Source: Phototrophicus methaneseepsis (GTDB lineage: Bacteria; Chloroflexota; Anaerolineae; Aggregatilineales; Phototrophicaceae). Taken from it: a stretch of DNA of 64,000 bases. How positions within the stretch are numbered: position 1 is the first letter of the stretch; every line of letters begins with the position of its first letter. Under the pieces are notes generated by a model. It made no database searches, had not been told where the DNA came from, and saw only the letters and a list, made by a program, of their open reading frames with translations. Positions 10,565 through 11,920 of this stretch are shown here, piece after piece. The stretch is from positions 3,596,001-3,660,000 of the forward strand of contig NZ_CP062983.1 in assembly GCF_015500095.1 (NCBI RefSeq). Reading direction: 5' to 3'. Both the position numbers and the translations under genes were made by a program.

Positions 10565-11050
10565 TTACTCTGCGACTTCTTCGCTGTCTTCCTGGACTGG
10601 CAGCTCATAGCCACGAGCACGCAGGCTCTTCTTGATATCGCTGAGGGCCTGACGACCAATGCCAGAGATGCTCAGGATGGCGTCGTCACCATCGCTAGCA
10701 AGGCGGTCTAACACATCCTGAACGACATTGATGTCGTTTTCATTGAGGATGTTGAGGTGGCGCTTGCTCAGCCCTAATTCACTTAGTGGCAAGTCGGGCG
10801 GTGTCAGGGCCTGACGTTCTTCATCCAGGCGATTCTGGATTTCGTCACGCATACGCAGACGCTTCATGAAGGTATCAACGCGGCCTTCGGTGTCCACAAT
10901 ACGCTGCTGGCCTGTGTAGAACGGATGGCAGTTCGCGCAAATTTCCGTTTGCATGGTAGGAACAGTTGCGCCGGTGCGCCATTCAGTGCCGCAAGACACA
11001 CACGTCACGACGGCATCCGGATACCATTCCGGATGAATTTCTTTCTTCAT
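10565..11050 (-). CDS. rpmE: Ribosomal protein bL31 fused to an RNA polymerase alpha-CTD-like domain
   Basis: 161 residues, about twice the usual bL31 (65-80). Residues 1-70 are a zinc-type L31: MKKEIHPEWY start, Cys17/Cys20 and Cys38/Cys41 as zinc ligands, and the hallmark CANCHPFYTGQQ. Residues 75-100 are a charged helical linker. Residues 103 to about 152 match the alpha subunit C-terminal domain of RNA polymerase: PLSELGLSKRHLNILNENDI, then a long VVQDVLDRL helix, and the helix-hairpin-helix ILSISGIGRQALSDIKKSL. The tail is acidic (DSEEVAE). The frame is continuous with no stop at the junction. In known alpha-CTDs this fold binds UP-element DNA or activators; whether this copy binds DNA, rRNA or the polymerase is unknown. 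Confidence 0.9.
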   Translation of the reverse strand: MKKEIHPEWYPDAVVTCVSCGTEWRTGATVPTMQTEICANCHPFYTGQQRIVDTEGRVDTFMKRLRMRDEIQNRLDEERQALTPPDLPLSELGLSKRHLNILNENDINVVQDVLDRLASDGDDAILSISGIGRQALSDIKKSLRARGYELPVQEDSEEVAE

Positions 11051-11129: not shown

Positions 11130-11402
11130 TTAGTGTTTTGGTGCTTCTGATGAGACGCTGATCTGCTTTTGGCCGTCACGATTACGCATACGTTCGAAGA
11201 CGACATAGCCTTCTGCTGTTGCGAAGATGGTGTGATCTTTGCCAATGCCGACATTTTCACCAGCGTGGAATTTGGTACCGCGCTGACGTACGATGATGTT
11301 GCCAGGAATGACATATTCACCACCGAACTTTTTAATACCCAGGCGCTTCGATTCACTATCGCGCCCGTTGCGGGTTGAACCGCCACCTTTTTTATGCGCC
11401 AT
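11130..11402 (-). CDS. rpmA: 50S ribosomal protein bL27
   Basis: 90 residues of standard bL27: [20 protein letters not shown] start, then [20 protein letters not shown] and the C-terminal strand [14 protein letters not shown]. The protein lies at the peptidyl-transferase centre, with its N-terminal tail reaching towards the tRNA CCA ends. It starts MAHKK with no Firmicutes-type N-terminal cleavage extension. It is the middle gene of rplU-rpmA-rpmE and is co-transcribed with them judging by spacing and the single strong promoter upstream. Confidence 0.96.
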
Positions 11403-11449: not shown

Positions 11450-11764
11450 TTAGTTAACGGAAATGTCGCCAATGCGCAGGCGGGTGTGATACTGACGGTG
11501 CCCACGCTTCACGCGGTAGTTGGTGCGCTGGCGATACTTAAAGACGATGACTTTTTCACCGCGGAACTGTTCTTCGACTGTAGCCGCTACAGTTGCACCG
11601 GGAACGTTGGGCGTGCCAACAACGGTATCTTCACCGTCGCCGATCATCAGGACATCGTCGATGACGATTTCTTCGCCAACTTCTTGGGGAAGGCGCTCAA
11701 CATCGAGAATCGCGCCGGTTTCCGCACGGTACTGGCGGCCTGCAATACGAACAATAGCATACAT
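11450..11764 (-). CDS. rplU: 50S ribosomal protein bL21
   Basis: 104 residues, the usual length: [17 protein letters not shown] start, [20 protein letters not shown], and the C-terminal [16 protein letters not shown], the conserved rRNA-binding segment. ATG 11764 has GGAG eight bases upstream and matches the family start; an in-frame upstream start would add seven non-conserved residues. First gene of the operon, downstream of a near-consensus promoter. Confidence 0.96.
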
Positions 11765-11891: not shown

Positions 11892-11920
11892 ATTATACGA
11901 GTTGAGTTTGGGTGCGTCAA
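11892..11920 (-). promoter_or_regulatory. Strong promoter of rplU-rpmA-rpmE
   Basis: Minus strand: TTGACG (11915-11920), exactly 17 bp, TATAAT (11892-11897). This near-perfect sigma-70 promoter gives a leader of about 120 bases before rplU. The 326-bp gap between rplU and the cupin gene otherwise shows nothing I can name. Confidence 0.8.

Follow-up and report, generated by a model that had tools for sequence, protein, structure and literature searches.

Ribosomal protein bL31 of many Anaerolineae carries an RNA polymerase alpha-CTD-type domain

As described in PMC9966373, the C-domain of ribosomal protein bL31 lies on the 30S head, contacts uS13 and uS19, reaches uS14 and ends at 16S helix 41, and the last eight residues of bL31 contribute to subunit association. 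The protein is nonessential under normal growth, according to PMC10931766. Ribosomes and the transcription machinery also touch directly: as given in PMC8116511, NusG binds uS10 in known expressomes, and Mycoplasma NusA reaches ribosomal proteins through a C-terminal extension. Helix-hairpin-helix (HhH) extensions are already known on other ribosomal proteins, namely L21 (PRK12278), S2 (PRK12311) and L32e (PRK12766). These resemble the protein described below in joining a ribosomal protein to an HhH domain, but the ribosomal proteins are different and the HhH domain belongs to another family. Among the open-licence papers that our searches listed, none appeared to describe an L31-alpha-CTD fusion.

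In this study, we analysed the bL31 gene within a 64,000-nucleotide stretch of the Phototrophicus methaneseepsis genome (the window). The results confirmed that a complete zinc-type bL31 continues, in one unbroken frame, into a long helix and a domain of the RNA polymerase alpha-CTD type (Table 1), much as the initial annotation had proposed from the letters. Pfam matched PF01197 (Ribosomal_L31) over the N-terminal part with E 2.3e-26 and 92.2 bits against a cut-off of 27, and Cys 17, 20, 38 and 41 are all present in the translation, indicating the zinc (C+) form. Four NCBIfam L31 models also matched this part, two of them above cut-off. The C-terminal part scored 29.9 bits (E 4.6e-7) with PF03118 (RNA_pol_A_CTD), whose cut-off is 23.8. 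It also matched nine NCBIfam RNA polymerase models (eight alpha, one beta-prime), far under their whole-protein cut-offs, as expected because it is a single domain, and its top PDB sequence match was the Thermus alpha-CTD 1doq (E 2.9e-6). Among NCBIfam matches up to E 10, no L21, S2 or L32e core was found in the fused protein. The gene gave the single L31 match in the whole 5.63 Mb genome (5,631,885 bases, one contig), and RpoA is a separate gene elsewhere with a normal CTD; the domain described here sits on L31 and not within the RNA polymerase alpha subunit. The protein thus shares with zinc-form bL31 the complete domain, the cysteines, the ribosomal operon and the status of only genome copy, but ordinary bL31 stops near residue 70, whereas the fused protein continues with a helix and a folded domain.

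Table 1. Features of the fused bL31 gene and its surroundings (window positions)
Feature	Position	Strand	Basis
rpmE-like gene, bL31 + alpha-CTD-type domain, 161 aa + stop	10565..11050	minus	ATG start, unbroken frame
bL31 domain, residues 1-66, zinc form (C17, C20, C38, C41)	10853..11050	minus	Pfam PF01197 residues 1-64 + translation
Linker, residues 67-84, mostly second half of predicted helix 57-82	10799..10852	minus	AlphaFold model
Alpha-CTD-type (HhH) domain, about residues 85-150	10601..10798	minus	Pfam PF03118 residues 80-144; fold match residues 82-147
Helix-hairpin-helix stretch SISGIGRQALSDIKKSLRARG, residues 127-147, including K140, K141, R144	10610..10672	minus	alignment counts
R97 codon, equivalent of E. 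coli alpha Arg265	10760..10762	minus	alignment
rpmA (bL27), upstream neighbour	11130..11402	minus	Pfam
rplU (bL21), operon's first gene, from ATG (ORF tool start: GTG, 11785)	11450..11764	minus	open frame
Promoter-like site TTGACG-17-TATAAT, 11/12, before rplU	11892..11920	minus	consensus match only
Terminator-like hairpin after L31 gene	10512..10547	minus	folding, -22.7 kcal/mol, z -4.68

The AlphaFold2 model, predicted from alignment A2 (see below), had a pLDDT of 79.4 and a pTM of 0.43, at which the placement of the domain against L31 is not to be read from the model. After the long predicted helix (57-82) come helices at 89-92, 96-104, 110-120, 122-126 and 133-145. In a Foldseek search, L31 chains came out on top, and the first alpha-subunit row stood at rank 28 (E 4.8e-3, probability 1.00). 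VIA aligned residues 82-147 of the predicted model with the alpha-CTD 9dvt (Z 10.3, rmsd 1.4, 62 residues), with Dmc1/Rad51 N-terminal domains lower (Z 8.0 to 8.7), and VIA itself warns that helical bundles may often give Z values below about 13. Because 10.3 is below about 13, the alpha-CTD assignment is carried by the profile match, and the predicted fold supports it. Profile, sequence and fold searches all put alpha-CTD first for the tail, and the profile search did not place it in an unrelated HhH family.

The gene order was rplU-rpmA-rpmE, followed by tdk on the same strand, in agreement with the operon membership, near-consensus promoter and own terminator that had been read from the sequence. 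The promoter-like site is weak evidence, because five such sites were found against 2.8 expected by chance. The scan that gave these promoter-like sites did not list the hairpin at 10547-10512. Across 110 loci, 15 of them unfused, the L21-L27-L31 order was seen in 108 and L27-L31 adjacency in 109.

Extensions also occur on the L21 of this operon. In Chloroflexota CSMAG_2365 (L036:2130-2714, plus strand), an alpha-CTD (PF03118, E 3.3e-15) sits on the bL21 of the L21-L27-L31 operon, whose L31 is without one. We also checked six L21s that were among the longest listed L21 matches from 251 genomes (G195, G096, G180, G164, G179 and G018). None had an alpha-CTD at E < 0.001, which rules out a widespread L21-CTD fusion as far as these six go. 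The best score among them (E 0.0017, 12.3 bits) belonged to G096, a fused-L31 genome whose L21 (L316, minus frame from 79) bears another HhH type. This extension matched HHH_5 (E 6.9e-9) and DUF4332 (E 3.1e-5) in Pfam, RNA polymerase alpha models gave no match to it at E 0.01, and the protein matched all three NCBIfam models PRK12278, PRK12311 and PRK12766.

We then searched other genomes with profile A1, made from five fused proteins, and scored as fused a match over at least 135 of 158 positions with at least 134.7 bits. The results showed fused L31 in 95 of 298 Anaerolineae genomes among the matches listed. The next match below this set had 128.1 bits over 86 positions, the longest listed match beneath the score gap (G442) ended at position 121, and two of the 298 genomes were without any match. 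The fusion spans 19 families by the tool's family codes. All 21 genomes of the window's own order (f1, f91-f95) carry the long form, so that L31 does not stop near residue 75 in these close relatives. Every genome was likewise fused in f2 (13/13), f5 (5/5), f10 (8/8), f12 (1/1), f121 (1/1), f125 (5/5), f129 (9/9) and f136 (2/2), and fusion was partial in f8 (15/16), f106 (5/6), f113 (1/3), f132 (8/10) and f135 (1/2). Seven genomes of fused families lack the full match: six show a weak match alone (best E 1e-16 to 1e-12), L31 perhaps being missing from the assembly, and the L31 of G445, the seventh, is unfused. When 400 genomes drawn from the phylum were searched with profile A2, the full-length matches among those listed came from 40 of the 55 members of the class and from none of the 345 remaining genomes. 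No CTD was found on the L31 of 76 loci (L036-L111; median length 70) or of 30 phylum loci (L002-L031). A scan restricted to close relatives, in which 84,980 species were represented by a single genome each, added four fused named records among the best 80 of 328 relatives. These results indicate that much of the class Anaerolineae has the fused form as its regular L31. In f53, long matches with a stop raised the idea of separate L31 and CTD genes. It failed for G135, whose match had continued into the adjacent gene, which by eye looks release-factor-like; in G135 and G381, L31 ends at 69 aa without a CTD.

Of the L31s from the 114 extracted loci, 15 were unfused and 99 fused, the latter being the 95 described above and those of the four named records. 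Thirteen of the 99 were read without ATG: six start with V, three with K and three with E; the thirteenth, L137 (G610), starts directly behind an in-frame stop within its L31 part, the one such row in the extracted set. For the other profile-match rows with a stop, the extracted frames were full-length where fetched, and L180 is truncated by a contig end. Alignment A2 contained 91 rows including the window protein, with L112, L114, L137 and L180 set aside and near-copies removed; the window protein represents L114 in it, and L032 represents L112. Over these rows, Pfam found L31 in 91 and RNA_pol_A_CTD in 73 at E 0.001. The residue analysis used 96 CTDs, leaving out L032, L033 and L180. Some fused L31s of f8 (L034, L035, L119 and other loci) were without the zinc cysteines (C-minus form) and retained the CTD.

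Several observations bear on the origin of the domain. RpoA retained its own CTD in 70/70 genomes examined, ruling out that RpoA lost it to L31. A loop insert of about three residues was present in 63/63 Anaerolineae RpoA CTDs and 0/7 RpoA of other Chloroflexota classes, and the same insert was found in L31 CTDs of the main group (76/76) and of a smaller group of 19 sequences from f106, f125 and f129 (17/19). This shared insert points to a donor within the class. RpoA and NusA are the likely donors for the main group, with the scores divided between them: 24/76 main CTDs (0/19 in the smaller group) scored higher with the Anaerolineae RpoA profile than with that of NusA, and the nearest pairwise relative was RpoA for 47 and NusA for 19 of the 76. 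In G469, the L31 CTD is identical at 53/64 positions to the second of two CTDs in the genome's own NusA, against 37/63 for the best RpoA. The distance from the end of this NusA open frame to the L31 gene, on the same contig, is about 0.8 kb. Against profiles, with its own NusA copies excluded from the NusA profile, the G469 domain scored 82.9 for RpoA and 64.5 for NusA. G469 belongs to f113; of the two other genomes there, one has L31 in unfused form and the other gave just a weak match.

In a tree of RpoA minus its CTD (70 rows), fused and unfused states required four changes, with f106, f125 and f129 among unfused families and G469 apart, many forks being weak. The domain-only tree (180 rows, 65 columns) was too poorly resolved for the donor or the number of origins. 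Because of the RpoA-tree pattern and the match of G469 to its own NusA, gain or overwriting of the domain apparently happened two or more times; the remaining sequences may still share a single old origin followed by many losses. The best explanation is that the second domain came from a local pool of alpha-CTD and NusA-CTD domains. The Anaerolineae NusA with a C-terminal alpha-CTD-like domain would belong to the same pool, NusA being a transcription factor whereas L31 is a structural ribosomal protein. E. coli NusA has acidic repeats.

Related domains were seen elsewhere in these bacteria. The NusA of several Anaerolineae carries a C-terminal alpha-CTD-like domain (L303 and L304 by Pfam, below cut-off; L295, L297, L298, L299, L300 and L301 by eye), L295 being the two-CTD NusA of G469. 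The RpoC of G438 (L302, plus frame from 1908) contains an alpha-CTD-like insert at fragment residues 733-787, just under the Pfam cut-off (E 9.3e-5, 22.5 bits), and G442 and G088 have large frames with similar matches. The window genome holds a third alpha-CTD profile match in a 277-aa protein with an HhH-like start (L144:859-1692, minus strand). By eye, a 918-aa frame of G639 (L296, plus frame from 2061) has an alpha-CTD-like domain close to the N-terminal end, followed by a likely membrane segment.

To compare ligand positions, we numbered residue columns by E. coli alpha (sequence checked). We take the 265 determinant for DNA to be R265, N268, C269, G296, K298, S299 and E302, and columns 261 and 287 to stand for the sigma and activator surfaces of the alpha-CTD. 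All 70 RpoA sequences were E. coli-like at R265, N268, G296, K298, S299 and E302 (100%). The window protein keeps the R265, N268 and G296 equivalents, with Q at 298 and D at 302. Across 77 main-group sequences (G469 included), R265 was present in 92%, G296 in 92%, K298 in 64%, Asp at 302 in 62% and N268 in 37%; the corresponding values in 20 of the 21 sequences of the window's own order were 95%, 100%, 75%, 95% and 55%. Without G469, the residue at 97 (the Arg265 equivalent) was basic in 70/76 main-group sequences. Asn268 was retained in 29/76 of these and in 0/19 of the smaller group, and the 261 and 287 columns had drifted. The L31 domain thus resembles the RpoA CTD in profile match, predicted fold, Arg265 and Gly296 equivalents and the Anaerolineae-type loop insert, but it has a GxG hairpin where RpoA has NxG, is mostly changed at Asn268 and has lost the sigma and activator surface columns to drift. 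It also adds basic residues K140, K141 and R144 on the last helix, beside the hairpin. These are L31-specific, and positions 140, 141 and 144 were K or R in 76/76 main-group sequences each, which suggests a more general backbone-binding HhH. The net charge of the hairpin half was +3.7 in the main group against +0.8 in RpoA, and that of the whole domain was -1.25, little different from -1.6 in RpoA. The smaller group is without this patch (basic at 97 in 14/19, at 140 in 10/19, at 141 in 0/19 and at 144 in 1/19; hairpin-half net charge -0.9), and the G469 domain has E at 141 and Q at 144. Nucleic acid binding by the basic patch would therefore not be general.

The CTD is under purifying selection, with dN/dS of 0.04-0.33 in 11 of 13 close pairs and saturation in the other two. 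In all 11 computed pairs its dN/dS exceeded that of the L31 part, and pN was greater in the CTD in 12/13. Recurrence in 95/298 class genomes, together with this selection, indicates that the fusion is more than chance.

Based on these comparisons, the main-group domain is probably a backbone-binding HhH displayed at the 30S head, and the ribosomes of many Anaerolineae probably display a nucleic-acid-binding module absent from ordinary ribosomes. We favour this reading because of the basic residues at 140, 141 and 144 and the charge of the hairpin half, and because the bL31 C-domain lies at the 30S head (PMC9966373). The HhH extensions modelled for L21, S2 and L32e also count for it. The L31 part would sit in bridge B1b. 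Its C-terminus would emerge near uS14 and 16S helix 41, and the domain would be held just beyond that exit point by the extended helix 57-82. There, the GxG hairpin with R97, K140, K141 and R144 may grip a nucleic acid backbone, most likely the 16S rRNA of the head or nearby mRNA, and such a grip would steady the 30S-50S link or hold RNA. The domain of the smaller group has no basic patch and may contact proteins instead. The small difference in whole-domain charge from RpoA and the faster change of the CTD count against backbone binding, as does the fact that alpha-CTD-type domains also bind proteins. Weighing both sides, we give about even chances to an L31 whose acquired domain binds nucleic acid backbone at the 30S head, probably rRNA or mRNA. 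To our knowledge, no ribosome structure has been solved for Anaerolineae. The fused L31 is a simple, testable candidate for an RNA-holding or coupling arm on the 30S head, and the presence, in 19 families, of an RNA polymerase-type domain on a core ribosomal protein is a natural experiment in part trading between the ribosome and the transcription machinery.

RNA binding is our preferred function, and the bold rival is a built-in contact with transcription, a link kept open by the likely donors, RpoA and NusA. The domain might tether the ribosome to RNA polymerase by touching the alpha subunit, NusA or upstream DNA, a reading that we consider rather unlikely. It would fit the relatedness to RpoA and NusA domains, including the near-copy in G469, the alpha-CTD-like domains that some Anaerolineae carry on NusA and within RpoC (three Pfam-run cases under cut-off) and the position of the bL31 C-terminus at the 30S head (PMC9966373). 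The NusG-uS10 and Mycoplasma NusA contacts (PMC8116511) offer precedents. The initial annotation had likewise suggested a possible link to RNA polymerase, DNA or rRNA operon UP elements; of the DNA determinant, the mostly basic Arg265 position stood, but Asn268 was largely gone and the activator and sigma columns had drifted, which argues against such a contact. By eye, moreover, the NusA of the window genome has a degenerate alpha-CTD-like version at most, absent from the PF03118 matches, and other ribosomal proteins also bear HhH extensions, for which we know of no coupling role. A wider form, in which L31 is a ribosome-side docking module whose domain, exchanged with those of RpoA and NusA, binds NusA, RNA polymerase or its DNA, seems unlikely; if true, every ribosome of these bacteria would bear a fixed coupling arm to RNA polymerase.

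It is less probable again that the domain is a folded spacer or stability extension under weak constraint and with no specific ligand. The faster CTD, its absence from related families and the variability of Asn268 and other ligand positions would suit a spacer, but the low dN/dS in the 11 computed pairs, three positions basic throughout the main group and apparent acquisition or overwriting at least twice speak against it. An annotation artefact, by which a frameshift or chimeric assembly joined L31 to a neighbour gene, might be suspected from the length of about 70 residues in other L31s, but is ruled out to near certainty by the same architecture in 95 genomes and four named records and by the single contig of the window genome. 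A tail of another kind was observed in Dehalococcoidia (L038, from 3001, plus strand), where a 144-aa L31 ends in EVTPEA/EVSPEA hexapeptide repeats.
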